From Catellatospora paridis (GTDB lineage Bacteria; Actinomycetota; Actinomycetes; Mycobacteriales; Micromonosporaceae), in assembly GCF_009720365.1 (NCBI RefSeq), contig NZ_WBZD01000038.1:62001-126000 (forward strand): 64,000 bases of DNA, read 5' to 3'. The position numbers were made by a program, and so were the translations under genes. Position 1 is the stretch's first letter. The number at the start of each line of letters is the position of its first letter. A model generated the notes under the pieces. It was not told the origin of the DNA, did no database searches, and saw only the letters and a list, made by a program, of their open reading frames with translations. Shown here piece by piece: positions 12,135-43,636 of the stretch.

Positions 12135-12169
12135 CCGACCGTGCCGTGGGCGCCCGATAGCCTGTCGTG

Positions 12170-12241
12170 GTGAGCGAGCGCAGCGAGCGAATCATGATGC
12201 TTGGTCATGCCGCCGACGAGCGCCGGCGAGGAGAAGGCATG
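12170..12241 (+). repeat. Micro-ORF/RBS repeat D, frame-fused copy before Nudix 2
   Basis: Starts GTGAGCGAGCGCAGCGAGCG and ends GGCGAGGAGAAGGCATG, giving the ribosome-binding site and ATG of the next gene. Relative to the copy before purH it has one extra base in the GACGAGCG(C)CGGCGAGGAG segment, so the micro-ORF has no stop and reads in frame into the Nudix gene. Confidence 0.8.
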
Positions 12242-13171
12242 CAGAAGCGGCGGCGCATCGGGGCCTACGGCATAGCGCACGACGAGCAGGGCCGGCTGCT
12301 GCTGGTCCGCTCGTCGGCCAGGTCCAACTTTCCGGGCGTGTGGTTCCTGCCCGGTGGCGGCCTGGAGCACGGCGAGGACCCGGCGGCGGCCGTGGTCCGC
12401 GAGTTCCGTGAGGAGACAGGGCTGACCGCCCGGATCGCGGGCCTGCGCGAGGTGACCTCTGACCTGGTCGAGTTCCCGTGGCGCGGGGTGCTGCTGCACC
12501 ACGACCGGATCATCTACGACATGACCGTCACCGGCGGTGAGCTGACCGTGGAGACCGACGGCACCTCCGACCTGCCCGCCTGGATCGAGCCCGCACGGCT
12601 GGGCGCGCTGGACCTGATCCCGTTCGCCGCCCGCACGCTGGGGCTGGAAGCCACCGGCCCGGCCAGCGGGCAGCGCCCCGCGTCCCCCGATGAGGCGGGG
12701 GAGATGGGGCCGGACGGCCGCGACCTCGGCGGCGCACGCAAGGTCGCCCGCTTCGGGGCGTACGGCGTGGTCACCGACCCGGCCGGCCGGGTGCTGCTGT
12801 CGCTGATCGCGGAGAACTACCCGGGCGCGGGCAAGTGGCACCTGCCCGGCGGCGGCACCGACTTCGGCGAGACCCCGGCCATCGGCCTGGTCCGCGAGGT
12901 CTTCGAGGAGTCGGGGCAGGTCGGCGAGGTGACCGAGCTGATCCGGGTGAACTCGACGCACAACCCCGCCGCGATGGGCCCCGAGGGCGAGCCCTACGAC
13001 TGGTACGTCGTGCGCGCCGTGTACCGGGTGGTGGTGCCGGAGCCCACAGTGCCGTCCGTCACCGAGGCGGTCGGCGGGTCCACCGCGCAGGCCCGCTGGT
13101 TCACCACCGCTGAGCTGGTCGATATTCCGCTGACCGAGTCGGCACACCGAGAATTGCGACATATTTCCTGA
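12239..13171 (+). CDS. Tandem double-Nudix hydrolase, paralogue 2
   Basis: A 310-residue protein starting at ATG 12239 behind GAGGAG. The frame is open to a GTG at 12170 and beyond, but that stretch is the repeat D micro-ORF, so the internal ATG is preferred. Domain 1 has a complete Nudix box (GLEHGEDPAAAVVREFREET), and domain 2 also (GGTDFGETPAIGLVREVFEE). The linker between them (about 140-175) is variable. It shares about the same layout and motifs (GAGKWHLPGGGTD in both) with the preceding gene, so the pair arose by tandem duplication. Confidence 0.84.
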   Translation: MQKRRRIGAYGIAHDEQGRLLLVRSSARSNFPGVWFLPGGGLEHGEDPAAAVVREFREETGLTARIAGLREVTSDLVEFPWRGVLLHHDRIIYDMTVTGGELTVETDGTSDLPAWIEPARLGALDLIPFAARTLGLEATGPASGQRPASPDEAGEMGPDGRDLGGARKVARFGAYGVVTDPAGRVLLSLIAENYPGAGKWHLPGGGTDFGETPAIGLVREVFEESGQVGEVTELIRVNSTHNPAAMGPEGEPYDWYVVRAVYRVVVPEPTVPSVTEAVGGSTAQARWFTTAELVDIPLTESAHRELRHIS

Positions 13172-14619: not shown

Positions 14620-15876
14620 TCAGCGCAGGCGGGCGATGACCGTGGAGCCGCCCGAGACGCGGTCGCCGGGGGCGACCAGGGCCTCGGCCTTGTCGGCGGG
14701 CAGGTAGACGTCGGTGCGCGAGCCGAAGCGGATCAGGCCGAACCGCTCGCCCTTGGCCAGCAGCGCGCCGATCGGGGCCCGCTGCACGATGCGCCGGGCG
14801 ATCAGGCCGGTCCGCTGGGCGACCACGACCCGGTTGCGGTCGGGCGTCTCCAGCACGGTGTACGCGGCCACGTTGTGCTCCGCCTCCGGCTTCATGGCGT
14901 TGGCGTACCCGCCGTCCTCGACGAAGTAGTCGACGACCTTGCCGGCCACCGGGGCCCGGTTGACGTGCACGTCGAACACGGACAGGAACACCGCGATGCG
15001 CAGGAACTCCTCGTCGGCGAAGCGCTCGTCGTAGATGTGCTCCACGCTGAGGACCCGGCCGTCGGCCGAGGCGACGACCGCGCTCGGGTCGGCGGGCACC
15101 TCGCGCTCGGGGTCGCGGAAGAAGGCGGCCACGGGGGCGGCCAGCAGCGCCGGGAGCACCCACGCCTTCGACTTCGGCCGGGTGGCCTTGAGGAACGCGG
15201 CCGCGCCCAGCGCGATGCCGGCCGCCGCGACGCCGTTGGAGTCGATGTTCATGGTGCCGTAGAGCGGCACGCTGGACGGGCGGAAGGCCGGGCCCAGCTT
15301 GGCAGCCACGGCCGGGTCGACGTCGGTGAAGCGCAGGCGGTGCACGCGTACCGGCGGGGTGTTGCGCAGCACCAGGTCGGAGCCGACGCCCTGACGGGCC
15401 GCGATGCGGTCGAGCTCGTCGGTCGCGCCACCGGACAGGCCGGGCAGCGCCACCGCGGCGATGATCAGCAGACCGCCCTCGGCGACGTACTTGCTCAGCT
15501 GCTCGACGGTGTTGCGCGCCTCCTCACCGGAGCCGACCACGGGCTCGGCGACGATGACCAGCTCGGCGGCCTCGGCGGCGGCGAGGTCGTCGACGACCTT
15601 GACCCGCTCGGCCAGGAAGCTGCCCAGGGTGGCCAGGTGGCCCGCGACGCTCGCGTCGGCCGCGACCACGGTGAGCTTGTCGCCGGGCAGCAGCGCGTCC
15701 AGCGCCTCGGCCAGCACCAGCGAGTCCGCGGACGCGCCGACCAGCAGGGCCGTCTTGGGGCCGGCGTGGCGGGCCAGTTCGGTGGTCAGGGTGCGGGCGG
15801 CGCGGTCGCCGATGCGGATCTGGCCGAGCGGGCCCAGCGCCGGTGTGCCGGGACGATCGGTCGGGTGTTGGCTCAT
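14620..15876 (-). CDS. psd: Phosphatidylserine decarboxylase with N-terminal Rossmann-like domain
   Basis: Makes phosphatidylethanolamine from phosphatidylserine. The C-terminal half (about 215-418) is a short-form PSD with FRDPEREVP, HVNRAPVAGKV and the self-cleavage/pyruvoyl site FGSRTD (Gly385-Ser386). The N-terminal ~190 residues are not needed for that fold. They resemble a nucleotide- or SAM-binding Rossmann domain (TALLVGASADSLVLAEAL, then LTVVAAD and GGLLIIAAVALPG). The ATG overlaps the stop of an upstream micro-ORF (ATGA). The fused N-terminal domain could bind a cofactor or be structural; its role is unknown. Confidence 0.85.
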   Translation of the reverse strand: MSQHPTDRPGTPALGPLGQIRIGDRAARTLTTELARHAGPKTALLVGASADSLVLAEALDALLPGDKLTVVAADASVAGHLATLGSFLAERVKVVDDLAAAEAAELVIVAEPVVGSGEEARNTVEQLSKYVAEGGLLIIAAVALPGLSGGATDELDRIAARQGVGSDLVLRNTPPVRVHRLRFTDVDPAVAAKLGPAFRPSSVPLYGTMNIDSNGVAAAGIALGAAAFLKATRPKSKAWVLPALLAAPVAAFFRDPEREVPADPSAVVASADGRVLSVEHIYDERFADEEFLRIAVFLSVFDVHVNRAPVAGKVVDYFVEDGGYANAMKPEAEHNVAAYTVLETPDRNRVVVAQRTGLIARRIVQRAPIGALLAKGERFGLIRFGSRTDVYLPADKAEALVAPGDRVSGGSTVIARLR

Positions 15877-15950
15877 GCCCGCTCCTCGCTGCGCTCGTCG
15901 CGTGCCCGAGCTGACCTGTGCTCCACGATTCGCTCGCTGCGCTCGCTCAT
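15873..15950 (-). CDS. Micro-ORF overlapping psd start (repeat D copy)
   Basis: A 25-codon frame that begins MSERSERIVEH and ends ARDERSEERA. Its TGA overlaps the psd ATG, and its last codons contain the GAGGAG that serves psd. The same length and ends recur before the response regulator, and a 24-codon version occurs before purH. This fits translational coupling, but expression is not shown. Confidence 0.5.
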   Translation of the reverse strand: MSERSERIVEHRSARARDERSEERA

Positions 15951-17763: not shown

Positions 17764-19011
17764 GTGCAGCCCTCCGTGCCCGAGTCCCCCCGCCTGACCC
17801 GCTCCCGCTCCGACCGCCTGGTCGCCGGGGTGGCCGGGGGCATCGCCGCGAACGTACGGCTGTCACCGACGCTGATCCGGATCGCCTTCGTCCTGCTGCT
17901 GCCCATCAACGGCCTCGGCGCGCTCCTCTATGCCGCCTTCTGGGCCGTGCTGCCGGCCGGGCCGGGGGAGACCCGTCCCCGCTCGCTGTGGCGGCTGGCC
18001 CCCTTCGTGCTGGCCGGGCTGGCGCTGATGACGGTCAGCACGCTGATCAACCACAACGGCGGGATCGGGATGACCGTCGGCTGGCTGGTGGCTCTGGTCG
18101 CCGTCGGCGCGGGCATCATCTGGCACCAGAGCGACCCGGACCGCCGCCAGCGCTGGTCCGACGAGTCGCCGTCGGCCCCCTGGCTGGCCGCCCTCTCCGA
18201 CGGGGACCGCCGGATCTACCTGCTGCGCTTCCTGGCCGGCGGGGTGCTGGTCGCGGTGGGCATCCTCGGCCTGGTCTTCCTCTACTCCCCGGTCGCCAAC
18301 GTCTCCTGGGCCGACATGTGGCGGGCGATCGCGTTCGCGCTGGTCGCACTCGCCGGCGTCGGCCTCGTGGCGGCGCCGGTGCTGTGGCGCACGCTGACCG
18401 CGCTGCGCGCCGAGCGCGAGGGCCGTATCCGCGAGCAGGAACGCGCCGAGCTCGCCGCGATGGTGCACGACCAGGTGCTGCACACGCTGGCGCTGATCCA
18501 GCGCAACGCGGCCGATCCGGCGGCCGTGCAGCGCATCGCCCGGGGCCAGGAGCGCAGCCTGCGCAACTGGCTCTACCAGCCCACCGGCTCACCGACCGAG
18601 CATTTCGCCGCGGCGCTCCAGCAGGCCGCCGCGGAGGTGGAGGACACCTACGGCATCGCCGTGGAGGCGGTGGTGGTCGGTGACCGCCTGGTGGACGACA
18701 AGGTGTCCGCGATCGTCGCCGCGGCGCGCGAGGCGCTGGTCAACGCGGCCCGCCATGCCAAGGTCAAGACCGTGTCGTTGTACGCCGAGGCGGAGCCGAC
18801 CATGCTGAGCGTGTTCGTCCGCGACCGCGGCACCGGTTTCGACCTCAACGGTGTCGAGGAGCGGCGGCACGGCGTCCGTGGTTCGATCATCGGGCGCATG
18901 TCGCGGCACGGCGGCCACGCGGAGATTCGCAGCGAGGTCGGCGAGGGCACCGAGGTCAGGCTGACCATGACGGTCACCTCGCCGAAGGAGCCGAAGGAGA
19001 CACCGGCATGA
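17764..19011 (+). CDS. PspC-domain sensor histidine kinase
   Basis: A 415-residue membrane kinase starting at GTG. An N-terminal PspC domain (about 10-65, SDRLVAGVAGGIAANVRLSP) is followed by about four further membrane helices to residue 215. The dimerisation helix has the phospho-acceptor His235 in MVHDQVLHTLALIQRNA, a NarL-type (HisKA_3-like) site. The ATPase domain shows AAREALVNAARHAKV and DRGTGFDLNGV. The architecture resembles MacS of Streptomyces coelicolor, an assignment from memory of that family. Its stop reads GCATGA, overlapping an ATG that runs into the micro-ORF before its response regulator. Confidence 0.88.
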   Translation: MQPSVPESPRLTRSRSDRLVAGVAGGIAANVRLSPTLIRIAFVLLLPINGLGALLYAAFWAVLPAGPGETRPRSLWRLAPFVLAGLALMTVSTLINHNGGIGMTVGWLVALVAVGAGIIWHQSDPDRRQRWSDESPSAPWLAALSDGDRRIYLLRFLAGGVLVAVGILGLVFLYSPVANVSWADMWRAIAFALVALAGVGLVAAPVLWRTLTALRAEREGRIREQERAELAAMVHDQVLHTLALIQRNAADPAAVQRIARGQERSLRNWLYQPTGSPTEHFAAALQQAAAEVEDTYGIAVEAVVVGDRLVDDKVSAIVAAAREALVNAARHAKVKTVSLYAEAEPTMLSVFVRDRGTGFDLNGVEERRHGVRGSIIGRMSRHGGHAEIRSEVGEGTEVRLTMTVTSPKEPKETPA

Positions 19012-19043
19012 GCGGGCGACGGCACACACGGCAGACATCGGGC

Positions 19044-19121
19044 ATGAGTGGACGGACCGGGAAAATCATGTTGCACGGTTCGGCTCAGGCACGTGACGAG
19101 CGCAGCGAGGAGCGGGCATGA
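19044..19121 (+). CDS. Micro-ORF overlapping response-regulator start (repeat D copy)
   Basis: A 25-codon frame beginning MSGRTGKIMLHG and ending ARDERSEERA; its TGA overlaps the response-regulator ATG. The last nine codons match the micro-ORF before psd, and the length is the same. An in-frame ATG at 19008, overlapping the kinase stop, would extend it by 12 codons and link all three frames. Expression is not shown. Confidence 0.5.
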   Translation: MSGRTGKIMLHGSAQARDERSEERA

Positions 19122-19777
19122 GCGAGGACGTGGGCGGGCAGCGGTTGCGGGTGTTCCTGGTCGACGACCACGGGATGTTCCGGGCGGGCGTGCGGGCCGA
19201 GCTGGGGGGCCACGTCGACGTGGTCGGCGAGGCGGCGACGGTGGCCCAGGCCGTGTCGATGATCGGCTCGGTGGTCCCGGACGTGGTGCTGCTGGACGTG
19301 CACATGCCGGACGGCGGCGGCCGCGCGGTGCTCGACGCGGTGCGCAAGACCCAGCCGCAGGTGCGCTTCCTGGCGCTGTCGGTCTCCGACGCGGCCGAGG
19401 ACGTGATCGGCCTGATCCGGGCGGGCGCGCGCGGCTACGTCACCAAGACGATCTCCCCGGACGACCTGGTGGACGCGATCCGGCGAGTGGCCGACGGGGA
19501 CGCGGTCTTCTCACCCCGGCTGGCCGGATTCGTGCTGGACGCCTTCGCCGCGCGGCCGGACGCGCCGGTGGCCGACCCGGAGCTGGACCAGCTGACCAAC
19601 CGGGAACGCGAGGTGCTGCGGCTGCTGGCGCGGGGGTACGCGTACAAGGAGATCGCCAAGGAGCTGTTCATCTCCATCAAGACGGTGGAGACCCACGTCT
19701 CCAATGTGCTCCGCAAGCTGCAGATGTCCAACAGATATGAATTGTCGCGTTGGGCCGCAGATCGACGCCTCGTGTGA
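19118..19777 (+). CDS. LuxR/NarL-family response regulator
   Basis: A 219-residue regulator paired with the preceding kinase. The receiver domain (about 10-125) has acidic residues D16-D17, phospho-acceptor D60 in VVLLDVHMPDGG, and the conserved lysine in GYVTKTIS. The LuxR-type helix-turn-helix is at about 152-215 (LTNREREVLRLLARGYAYKE, then SIKTVETHVSNVLRKL). The start is the ATG at 19118 behind GAGGAGCGGG, which lies inside repeat D. It probably controls envelope-stress genes, including the divergent PspC operon. Confidence 0.92.
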   Translation: MSEDVGGQRLRVFLVDDHGMFRAGVRAELGGHVDVVGEAATVAQAVSMIGSVVPDVVLLDVHMPDGGGRAVLDAVRKTQPQVRFLALSVSDAAEDVIGLIRAGARGYVTKTISPDDLVDAIRRVADGDAVFSPRLAGFVLDAFAARPDAPVADPELDQLTNREREVLRLLARGYAYKEIAKELFISIKTVETHVSNVLRKLQMSNRYELSRWAADRRLV

Positions 19778-40080: not shown

Positions 40081-41088
40081 TCAGTTGAACTGCTGGTACT
40101 GGTCGTAGATCCGGTCCTGCCAGCCGGTCGCGATGCCGCAGATCGCGGCGATCATGGCGATGACGCCCAGCGCGATGGCGACCCAGCCGAGCCACGACAT
40201 CGATGCCGCGCCCTTCTTCACCTTGTTGAGGTGCATGGCGCCGAGGATGACCGCCGGGATGCCGCCGAGGAACGGGGCGCCGTTGATCCAGGGACAGCAG
40301 CAGCAACCGGTGCCGATGATGCCGCAGGCCAGCGCGATCCAGCCGAACAGGTTGTTCTGCCCGCCCGCCTTCTGGTAGACGGTGCCCTGGGCGGGACCCA
40401 GCGGCGGTGGCGGCGGCGGTCCCCCGATCGAGGGCGGCGGCGGTGGTGGTGGCGGCAGCGGGGTGCCGGACGAGCCGTACACCGTCCCGCCGCCCGAGCC
40501 GTAGGGATCGGGCACCGGCGGGGGAGGCGGCACAGGCGCCGGGTACGGCTGCTCCGCGGGCTCGGGCCAGCCCGGCGGCGTGGGCGTGCTCGCTCCGATC
40601 GACGGCGGAGGGGGCACCGGCGGCATCGGTGGCGGCGGGCCGGGCGGCGTGGGCGGCGACGGCGGGATCGGCGGCGTCGGCGGGGTGGGCGCGGTCGGGT
40701 CGCTCATGGCGGCCGGTGGCGCGAACTCCGGCGCGGGCGGCGGGTTGAACGGGTTGTCCACGCTGGTCGGCGGCTCCGGGCTGGCCGGGGGCTCCGGCCA
40801 GACCCCGCCCGCGGTGCCCGGTGCGCCGGTCGACGGCGCGGCGGGTTCGGGCGCGGACGGCGGTTCCGGCTCGTACGCCGGGCCGGCGGCCGGGGAGACC
40901 GGTTCGGGCTCGGGCCGCCAGGTGGCGCCTTCGGGGGGCGCGGGAACCGGTTCGCTCGGCGGCGACGGCACATCGGGCGAGGGCGGAGCGGGCGGCTGGT
41001 CCTCGCGCGACGGCGGCTGCGACGGCGGCTGCGGCGGCCAGGACGGCGGCTCCTCCGGCGTCTCCGGTGGCTTCGGCGGTTGCGTCAA
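40081..41088 (-). CDS. Long proline-rich DUF4190-like membrane protein
   Basis: A 335-residue protein whose first ~235 residues are a Pro/Ser/Glu-rich, disordered region. The C-terminal ~90 residues have two to three helices with a cysteine cluster (GTGCCCCPWINGAPFLGGIP) and the cytoplasmic MHLNKVKKGAAS loop. It resembles the two DUF4190-type proteins nearby with a much longer tail. The proline tail may be an interaction platform; function unknown. Confidence 0.72.
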   Translation of the reverse strand: MTQPPKPPETPEEPPSWPPQPPSQPPSREDQPPAPPSPDVPSPPSEPVPAPPEGATWRPEPEPVSPAAGPAYEPEPPSAPEPAAPSTGAPGTAGGVWPEPPASPEPPTSVDNPFNPPPAPEFAPPAAMSDPTAPTPPTPPIPPSPPTPPGPPPPMPPVPPPPSIGASTPTPPGWPEPAEQPYPAPVPPPPPVPDPYGSGGGTVYGSSGTPLPPPPPPPPSIGGPPPPPPLGPAQGTVYQKAGGQNNLFGWIALACGIIGTGCCCCPWINGAPFLGGIPAVILGAMHLNKVKKGAASMSWLGWVAIALGVIAMIAAICGIATGWQDRIYDQYQQFN

Positions 41089-41277
41089 GATCGGCTCCTC
41101 GCGTTCGGCAGAGCGTGCGGGGCGACGGCGCCCGGCTGGCCGGGCGGGGTCGGCACGTTCTGGAATGCAGTTCTTCGCCCAATATCTACTTTATTTGCGG
41201 GTTTGTCGGGCAAAACGCCGTAAGTGCGCGCCGCACCCGGCGCGAGCAGCGCCGCGGCTGCCCGATAGGGTGCAGAG

Positions 41278-41883
41278 GTGACCGCTCGCCTCGTCGTCCT
41301 GGTCTCCGGTTCCGGTACCAATCTCCAAGCCCTGCTCGATGCCTGCGCCGACCCCGCATACGGGGCGGCCGTCGTCGGCGTCGGCGCGGACCGCCACGGC
41401 ATCGCGGGCCTGGCCCGTGCCGAGGCCGCGGGAGTGCCCACCTTCGTCGCCCGGGTCCCGGACTTCGCCACCCGCCAGGAGTGGGACGAAACCTTCACCG
41501 ACCTGACCGCGGCGCACCAGCCCGACCTCGTCATCGGCGCGGGCTTCCTCAAGCTGGTGGGCAAGGTGTTCCTGGACCGGTTCGGCGGACGTTATGTCAA
41601 CACCCACAACGCGCTGCTGCCGGCCTTCCCCGGCATGCACGGCCCGCGCGACGCCGTCGAGTACGGGGTGAAACTGGCCGGCGCGACGCTGCACTTCGTG
41701 GACGGCGGTGTGGACACCGGGCCGATCATCGCGCAGGTCGCGGTACCGGTGCTCGACGACGACACCGAGGACACCCTCTCCGAGCGCATCAAGGACGCCG
41801 AGCGCGGACAGCTGGTGGAGTACGTCGGCCGCATGGCCCGCCACGGCTGGACCGTCAACGGCAGGAAAGTGATCGTCGGCTGA
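41278..41883 (+). CDS. purN: Phosphoribosylglycinamide formyltransferase
   Basis: A 201-residue enzyme for the third step of purine synthesis, using 10-formyl-tetrahydrofolate. The phosphate loop is [14 protein letters not shown] near the GTG start. The catalytic N-x-H motif is present as [12 protein letters not shown], with Asn in place of the usual proline after the histidine. The catalytic aspartate lies in [13 protein letters not shown]. 178 bp separate it from purH, and repeat D fills much of that gap. Confidence 0.94.
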
Positions 41884-41969
41884 ACGGCCGCATCCCGCGC
41901 CGTCACCGGCCGGGACGGCGGGACCGCGTACGACGAGCCGACCACGGGGCCGGCGGCTCAGGCCGGTCC

Positions 41970-42064
41970 CGAACGTAGCGAGGAGAAGGCATGAGCGAGC
42001 CTGGCGAGCGAATCATCAGGCTGGTGGCTCATGCCTTCGACGAGCGGAGCGAGGAGAAGGCATG
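41970..42064 (+). repeat. Micro-ORF/RBS repeat D between purN and purH
   Basis: Contains two copies of the translation-start half, GTAGCGAGGAGAAGGCATG (41975-41993) and GGAGCGAGGAGAAGGCATG (42046-42064), the first opening the micro-ORF and the second opening purH. Between them lies GAGCGAGCCTGGCGAGCGAA, the start half seen in the other copies. Confidence 0.8.
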
Positions 42065-42065
42065 A
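41991..42065 (+). CDS. Micro-ORF overlapping purH start (repeat D copy)
   Basis: A 24-codon frame that begins [11 protein letters not shown] and ends DERSEEKA, with its TGA overlapping the purH ATG. It has its own GAGGAG. It matches the micro-ORFs before psd and the response regulator in layout and ends, so it may couple translation of purH to ribosome traffic. Expression is not shown. Confidence 0.52.
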
Positions 42066-43636
42066 CCACGGGTGAGCGCAAGCCCATTCGACGCGCGCTG
42101 ATCAGCGTGTGGGACAAGACCGGGCTGGAGGCCCTCGCCGCGACGCTGCGGCGGCACGGTGTCGAGATCGTCTCCACCGGCAGCACGGCCCAGCAGATCG
42201 AGACCACCGGCTCGCCGGTCACCCGGGTCGAGGAGCTCACCGGCTTCCCGGAGACCCTGGACGGGCGGGTCAAGACGCTGCACCCGCGGGTGCACGCGGG
42301 CCTGCTGGCCGACGTGCGCCTCGACACGCACCGCGCGCAGCTGACCGAGCTCGACATCGAGCCGTTCGACCTGCTGGTGTCCAACCTGTACCCGTTCACC
42401 GAGACGGTGGCCTCGGGCGCGTCCGCGGACGAGTGCATCGAGAAGATCGACATCGGCGGCCCGGCCATGGTGCGCGCGGCGGCCAAGAACCACGCCAATG
42501 TCGCGGTGGTCACCTCGCCCGCCGACTACCACCTGATCGCCGCGGCCCTGGAGTCCGGCGGCTTCTCGCTGGGCGAGCGCCGTGCGCTGGCGGCCCGCGC
42601 CTTCGCCGACATCGCCGACTACGACATCGCGGTGGCGAACTGGTGCGCCCAGGAGCTGGCCCCGGCCCCGGCCGAGGGCTTCGCCTGGCCGGAGTACGCC
42701 GGGCTCGGCCTGTGGCGCAGCAACGTGCTGCGTTACGGGGAGAACCCGCACCAGGCGGCGGCGCTGTACATCGACCCGTCCGCCGCGCCCGGCCTGGCCC
42801 GCGCGCAGCAGCTCGGCGGCAAGGAGATGTCCTACAACAACTACATCGACGCCGACGCCGCCTGGCGCACCGTGCACGACTTCGAGGGCGTGCACGCCGT
42901 CGCGGTGATCAAGCACGCCAACCCGTGCGGCATCGCGGTGTCCGCGGTCTCGGCCGCCGACGCGCATGCCAAGGCGCACGCGTGCGACCCGGTCTCGGCG
43001 TACGGCGGCATCATCGCGGTCAACTCCGAGGTGACCGCGGAGCTGGCCAAGCAGATCGCCGAGATCTTCACCGAGGTCGTGGTGGCCCCCGCGTACGCGC
43101 CGGAGGCGGTGGAGATCCTGACGGCGAAGAAGAACCTGCGCGTGCTGCTCGCCCCGCCGTTCCGGCCGAACAAGGTCGAGCTGCGGCAGGTGTCCGGCGG
43201 CATGCTCGTGCAGACCCGCGACGACTTCGGCGCGCCCGGCGACGACGCGGCCAACTGGCGGCTGGCCACGGGCGAGCCCGCCACGGCCGAGCAGCTCGAC
43301 GACCTGGAGTTCGCCTGGGGTGCGATCCGGGCCGTCAAGTCCAACGCCATCCTGCTGGCCAAGGACGGGGCCAGCGTGGGCGTGGGCATGGGCCAGGTCA
43401 ACCGGGTCGACTCGTGCCGCCTGGCGGTCTCCCGGGCCGGTGACCGGGCCCGCGGTTCGGTCGCCGCCTCGGACGCGTTCTTCCCGTTCGCCGACGGCCT
43501 GCAGATCCTGCTCGACGCCGGCGTGACCGCCGTCGTCCAGCCCGGCGGCTCGATCCGCGACGAAGAGGTCATCGCCGCGGCCAAGGCCGCCGGCATCACC
43601 CTCTACCTGACCGGCTCCCGCCACTTCGCCCACTGA
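42062..43636 (+). CDS. purH: Bifunctional AICAR formyltransferase/IMP cyclohydrolase
   Basis: A 524-residue enzyme for the last two steps to IMP. The N-terminal cyclohydrolase (MGS-like) domain has [25 protein letters not shown] and the PRVHAGLL segment. The transformylase domain has the catalytic KHANPCG motif and [20 protein letters not shown]. The conserved C-terminal end TGSRHFAH is present. Its ATG overlaps the micro-ORF stop. Confidence 0.96.

Follow-up and report, generated by a model that had tools for sequence, protein, structure and literature searches.

The purN-purH micro-ORF of Catellatospora is one unit of a dispersed, MIRU-like repeat often placed at stop/start overlaps

REP/BIME and the palindromic elements derived from IS200/IS605 are short, dispersed, hairpinned and non-autonomous; REPs, to our knowledge, are neither placed at start codons nor accompanied by a coupled ORF. 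MIRUs are a standard typing marker, and Supply et al. in 1997 reportedly gave their target as 'DTGA'. PMC12548453, citing Supply et al. 1997, describes MIRUs as mobile-looking repeats whose insertion sites are start codons and whose ORF is coupled at -4 nt. Their function is not well understood, and 41 locations are given for M. tuberculosis H37Rv, according to PMC2734929. PMC4213456 gives MIRU lengths of 53 and 77 and limits the senX3-regX3 MIRUs to M. leprae and the tuberculosis complex. The element described here, from Catellatospora paridis, is of the same kind as MIRU and forms a branch of its own, in which the start site is folded; the statement in the first-pass annotation that no named description exists thus falls, since PMC12548453 concerns this kind of repeat. 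It resembles REP/BIME and the IS200/IS605-derived elements in being short, dispersed, hairpinned and non-autonomous, and differs from REP in its start-codon placement and its putatively coupled ORF.

The window is a 64,000-nt stretch of C. paridis DNA. As first annotated, a 24-codon micro-ORF (41991..42065, plus strand) lies between purN (41278..41883, plus strand; Pfam Formyl_trans_N, formyltransferase) and purH (42062..43636, plus strand; Pfam AICARFT/IMPCHase), and its TGA (42063-42065) overlaps the purH ATG at 42062. The same translation-start module had been assigned to both starts, and AGCGAGGAGAAGGCATGA indeed occurs exactly at 41977-41994 and 42048-42065; with up to three mismatches, it gave five matches in the window against 0.04 expected. 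The purH start is preceded by the SD-like purine-rich stretch AGCGAGGAGAAGGC (42048..42061, plus strand). The module is doubled because a degenerate unit (41931..41994, plus strand; nhmmer, model positions 13-75 only) stands head-to-tail before the intact one, providing the AGCGAGGAGAAGGC stretch ahead of the micro-ORF start. With the covariance model R1 described below, the intact unit was matched at C18:103995-104065 (65.4 bits) and the degenerate unit at C18:103932-103994 (30.8 bits, E 2.7e-6). The ATGA-to-ATGA spacing of the intact unit is 71 nt (2 mod 3). From the purN stop to the start of the micro-ORF is ∼108 nt, and the focal site therefore lacks a double overlap. No tRNA genes were found within the window. 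In C. methionotrophica, the orthologous purN-purH copy (L065 2440-2514) has a spacing of 61 and its end is no longer on the purH start; this micro-ORF would overlap purH by 14 nt, making the copy a natural frame variant that counts against the frame rule given below. Among 80 loci compared, the named PurH nearest to that of the window is also from C. methionotrophica (95%).

Like frames had also been noted before psd and a response regulator gene, and both are present, with the gene names upheld by Pfam. The unit before psd (15873..15950, minus strand) runs from an ATG at 15950 to the psd ATG at 15876, a spacing of 74 (2 mod 3), and psd itself encodes phosphatidylserine decarboxylase (14620-15876, minus strand). 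A diverged unit (19044..19121, plus strand; spacing 74) precedes the gene of a LuxR-type response regulator (19118-19777, plus strand), whose ATG is at 19118. The sequence GACGAGCGCAGCGAGGAG is exact in both, at 15882-15899 (minus strand) and 19095-19112 (plus strand). The stretch 19008-19121, between a PspC/HATPase kinase gene and the regulator, holds three ATGA junctions in series: the kinase stop (19009-19011), which overlaps an additional ATG at 19008, then an odd 36-nt step, and then the 74-nt diverged unit. A fourth unit (12170..12241, plus strand), absent from the first-pass annotation, with an extra base and a spacing of 69 (0 mod 3), ends at a NUDIX ATG at 12239, and its frame reads into the NUDIX gene, breaking the 2-mod-3 rule. 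The NUDIX ORF (12167-13171) can also be read from a GTG just ahead of this unit, in which case the protein would gain a 24-residue N-terminal extension, a micro-ORF turned coding sequence. The genes identified by Pfam behind these four units (purH, psd, the response regulator and NUDIX) are mutually unrelated.

The purH micro-ORF belongs to a repeat that is dispersed through the genome and frequently stands in tandem. BLAST of the host genome (G000; 8.97 Mb, 35 contigs) yielded 55 element matches, and R1, a sequence-only covariance model for which 54 units were taken from an initial 57 near-complete ones, yielded 154 at E up to 0.1, the best with E 1.5e-20. We took 150 of these with their flanks and examined them as 117 sites, which hold a single unit (88 sites), two units (25) or three (4); elements measure ∼60-90 bp, roughly 70. 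MIRUs likewise are short (40-100 bp) dispersed repeats of variable tandem number. Ten Catellatospora congeners carry 10 to 126 matches under stricter filters, with which the host has 125. The match places of congener G001 coincide with those of G047 (C. methionotrophica), to which species G001 very probably belongs. Weak units also stand in a row at G000:C19:754-976 (three) and C10:175345-175481 (two), possibly the remains of old tandem arrays. The core GAGCGNAGCGAGGAG is of low complexity, as would be expected if GC-rich SD-like motifs recurred by chance or through base composition; the number and strength of the matches, together with the empty sites and the full-length matches in other genera given below, exclude such an origin.

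Seven host sites on two contigs were aligned to the congeners, and six of the seven are represented in at least one congener by an empty NTGA; the seventh, C23 site C, gave no clear outcome. At C23 site A, three units in the host correspond to two in G003 and G006, one in G004 and an empty site in G007, G002 and G008, so aligned sequences show tandem number varying within the genus. At C23 site B, G003 and G001 lack the element and differ slightly in the adjoining bases. Empty sites were found in eight of ten congeners at both C13:95507 and C13:99838 (the latter with identical bases on both sides in G003), in all seven aligned congeners at C13:102633, where the host is filled, and in two of the five aligned at C13:103717. 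The first NTGA base at the two ends was AA in 27 cases, GG in 7, GA in 8 and AG in 3, with one GTGA/ATGC (Fisher p 0.009), an agreement above chance and not invariable. The empty site at C13:95507 reads GTGA in seven of the eight congeners, in contrast to the host ATGA at both ends. Strict target duplication is therefore not proved, because the end bases agree incompletely and the empty sites at C13:95507 differ. Taken together, the filled and empty sites among congeners show, by alignment, insertion at NTGA and indicate that the element is mobile, in the way that MIRUs appear to be at start codons.

For gene calling around the elements we used a model of codon log-odds, with long ORFs from the retrieved host DNA as its training set. 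The first-pass annotation had asked whether copies stand at start codons, and the 3' start codon of the element is a gene start at 98 of the 117 sites (ATGA 79, GTGA 17, ATGC 2). At the other 19, the match has no start codon at its 3' end (11 sites), or the DNA there is coding in +2 (four) or +1 (two) or is antisense or none (two); 10 of these 19 still have a 5' TGA that is an upstream stop. A 5' NTGA is recognizable at 69 sites and absent at 48, and in 42 of the 69 the upstream gene stops at the 5' TGA. Among 6255 ATGA/GTGA outside elements, by comparison, an upstream stop was present at 2.1-2.7% and a gene-start-like context at 24-25%, a generous null since internal in-frame codons were counted. 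Upstream stop and downstream start coincide at 32 of the 69 element sites versus 61 of the 6255 background sites, a preference for stop/start overlaps that is thus shown at the level of gene calls. At 91 of the 98 sites with a gene start, an ORF that begins within the element has the overlapping TGA as its stop; this internal ORF, overlapping its downstream neighbor here and its upstream neighbor in the 42 cases above, is MIRU-like.

NTGA-to-NTGA spacing is usually 2 mod 3, and therefore the micro-ORF ends on the next start. The 150 examined matches include 108 complete units, the other 42 being incomplete and dropped, and 102 of the 108 obey the rule over length classes 26-83; six break it and count as evidence against it. 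Among the first 57 units, 55 obey, and both exceptions stand in tandem with a partner unit that brings the frame back. The rule extends to other genomes of the order, with 77 of 79 among the full-length matches listed (most from genus g4) and 48 of the 50 retrieved foreign copies in which both ends are present; these 50 belong to 53 taken as full or nearly full matches, some of which are also among the 79. Frame conservation, which the first-pass annotation had wanted followed up, is thus seen across genera by spacing. A repeat supplying the downstream gene with a promoter or terminator would leave the 2-mod-3 spacing and the stop/start overlap unexplained, and we consider such a transcriptional element very improbable, even though the MIRU-bearing senX3-regX3 intergenic region is able to drive regX3 alone according to PMC4213456.

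Codon-position variability revealed no excess of change at third codon positions, and among the first 57 units there are two sites where copies contain a +1 shift that a -1 offsets. A function of the peptide was set aside on these two grounds; the frame is kept and the peptide is not, so that the element peptide, judged from its sequence, appears not to matter. The same two observations argue against a regulatory leader in which the peptide or its translation senses a condition in an attenuation-like manner. Such a leader would have a short ORF and a structured start in front of biosynthetic and regulatory genes, as is seen here. The 117 sites, the unrelated genes behind the four units identified and the lack of any Rfam family near threshold in 41000-43000 speak against it, and we regard this reading as very improbable.

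We then considered the structure of the start site. At purH, a hairpin (42029..42065, plus strand) with a 10-bp stem pairing 42029-42038 with 42056-42065 holds the purH AUG (42062-42064), and its loop contains most of the SD-like stretch. With three more closing pairs the fold reaches -24.0 kcal/mol (z -4.56); the psd copy is no better folded than its shuffles (z 0.47). The element has one hairpin near each end, and the start codon of the downstream gene lies in the second. Over 53 distinct copies from the host, the two hairpins jointly have 94.0% of cells paired, with four pairs and seven cells showing double changes, and the start-codon hairpin alone has 91.2% paired, with three pairs and four double-change cells; these covariation counts were matched by 0-1 of 500 shuffles (0 of 500 for the joint seven cells), and they are flattering and the trials not independent, because the structures were drawn from the same copies and because neither the copies nor the length classes are unrelated to one another. 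In 16 of the 53, the outermost pair of the stem does not form. In 21 mycobacterial copies, to which the same reservation applies, 93.7% of cells of the start-codon hairpin are paired with 11 double-change cells (0 of 500 shuffles), while the number of double-change pairs was equaled in 79 of 500 shuffles; RNAalifold recovers the same stem in these copies. Covariation of the start-codon hairpin is in this sense shown by the aligned copies. The open literature searched, mostly mycobacterial, showed no description of a start-codon hairpin in such repeats.

The explanation that we consider best, and hold with good confidence, is a MIRU-like mobile element in which a relay micro-ORF restores coupling and a hairpin gates the downstream start. 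A small non-autonomous element would insert at an existing NTGA, often an ATGA/GTGA stop/start overlap, and would leave NTGA at both of its ends. We infer that a ribosome ending the upstream gene would restart on the micro-ORF and translate ∼24 codons, and that this translation would open the hairpin holding the next AUG. The ribosome would then stop on the TGA that overlaps this AUG and begin again on the downstream gene. In this way the element would restore the coupling that it interrupted, and the downstream start would be made dependent on translation of the micro-ORF. The first-pass annotation had spoken of a mobile translation-coupling cassette; empty sites, gene-start placement and frame bear out the mobile and positional parts of that description, and an effect of the coupling on expression is predicted by it.

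The element might instead be a selfish repeat, tolerated where a 2-mod-3 insert preserves coupling, of no regulatory benefit and with hairpins that serve as transposition ends. Single-strand mobilization of the HUH/Y1 type takes place 3' of a short target, and the element lies 3' of an NTGA, ends in NTGA and has a hairpin near each end. A Y1_Tnp (PF01797) match was found in 6 of 11 genomes, the host included, and genomes with the match are richer in copies (125, 115, 114, 39, 126 and 31, compared with 90, 25, 14, 12 and 10; Mann-Whitney p 0.017, uncorrected for relatedness). However, G007 has 90 copies and no match, its transposase possibly lost or missed in the draft, and in three of the six positive genomes the match is partial or has a stop inside. 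At transposase loci L262-L265 the best element match, with E 0.032 over 27 positions, is not convincing, and a search for inverted repeats at two transposase loci found nothing usable. Given this patchy occurrence, the Y1 transposase is kept as a suggestive lead to the mobilizer. An RNA role is also compatible with the second hairpin, which spans the start codon of the downstream gene and covaries among resident copies. We give the selfish reading somewhat less than an even chance; it is compatible with the relay micro-ORF and gated start that we prefer.

We also searched other genomes with R1. Matches at E up to 1e-6 occur in 75 of 298 genomes of the order and 19 of 77 sampled genera, and at E up to 1e-3 in 17 of 148 mycobacterial genomes, 14 of them full-length, mostly of a 65-bp class for which we know of no name. 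The 65-bp elements match the Catellatospora element over its full length (E down to 8.2e-7) and share its NTGA ends, with a start-codon hairpin at the equivalent position; their usual spacing is 65 and their middle is shorter. A MIRU-type core is present in 69 of the 148 mycobacterial genomes, in 2 of the 17 matched by R1 (1 of the 14 with full-length matches) versus 67 of the 131 others (Fisher p 0.003). R1 matches, mostly of the 65-bp class, and the MIRU core thus rarely co-occur, and may be lineages of which one has replaced the other.

Thirty MIRU-type loci were compared, 18 with both NTGA ends and 12 missing an end. The 18 have spacings of 53 (11), 77 (2), 50 (2), 51 (2) and 49 (1), with 15 of the 18 at 2 mod 3. 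A MIRU-typing primer matched 2 of 396 genomes with one and two mismatches, and no M. tuberculosis MIRU copy was identified; the primer-matching locus L353 has a MIRU-like remnant without a tandem array, and it prompted the MIRU-core search. We call the core loci MIRU because the spacings of 53 and 77 match the quoted lengths, because the core sequence is that of MIRU, and because it was found at the primer locus. A term search of PMC9094748 returned no mention of MIRU, and no MIRU sequence was obtained from PMC3635867. Tuberculosis complex genomes are ∼4.4 Mb, smaller than those of the mycobacteria G154, G054, G162 and G163 (5.4-6.0 Mb), in which the MIRU core forms tandem arrays with steps of 51, 52, 53, 54 and 77 bp.

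A profile of the 30 MIRU copies placed 38 of its 45 hits on Catellatospora elements, on the same strand, although these make up 1.6% of the searched DNA; the hits cover the 3' arm only and are individually weak (best E 0.024), and R1 scores a MIRU copy at only 6.7 bits. Common descent of the 3' arm is thus likely, not proved, from these profile matches. The 5' half differs, the 5' GCGAGC hairpin arms of the Catellatospora element being absent from the MIRU consensus. In the MIRU copies, a GCGCCG/CGGCGC stem keeps five or six of six pairs in 22 of 30, with little covariation. The Catellatospora-type branch extends over Micromonosporaceae and other genera, as opposed to the mycobacterial MIRU. 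No such element appeared in the open literature searched, few of the searches having been aimed outside mycobacteria, so that this is weak evidence of absence; 'miru' hits in Kutzneria and Actinoalloteichus papers were 'mirum' and were discarded. What is new is a branch outside mycobacteria, a covarying start-codon hairpin and a frame rule that holds across genera. More speculatively, and in our view rather unlikely, MIRU, the 65-bp mycobacterial class and the Catellatospora element could be branches of one old superfamily of single-strand mobile elements targeting the stop/start overlap, whose right-end hairpin would be both a transposition end and an mRNA gate hiding the next start until the micro-ORF is translated.

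One Catellatospora genome offers 117 examined sites, compared with the 41 quoted for M. tuberculosis H37Rv in PMC2734929. Because congeners differ in which sites are filled and which are empty, both coupling and mobility can be put to a direct test. The element also provides a natural set of many replicate insertions, which would rewire translation in gene pairs unrelated to one another.
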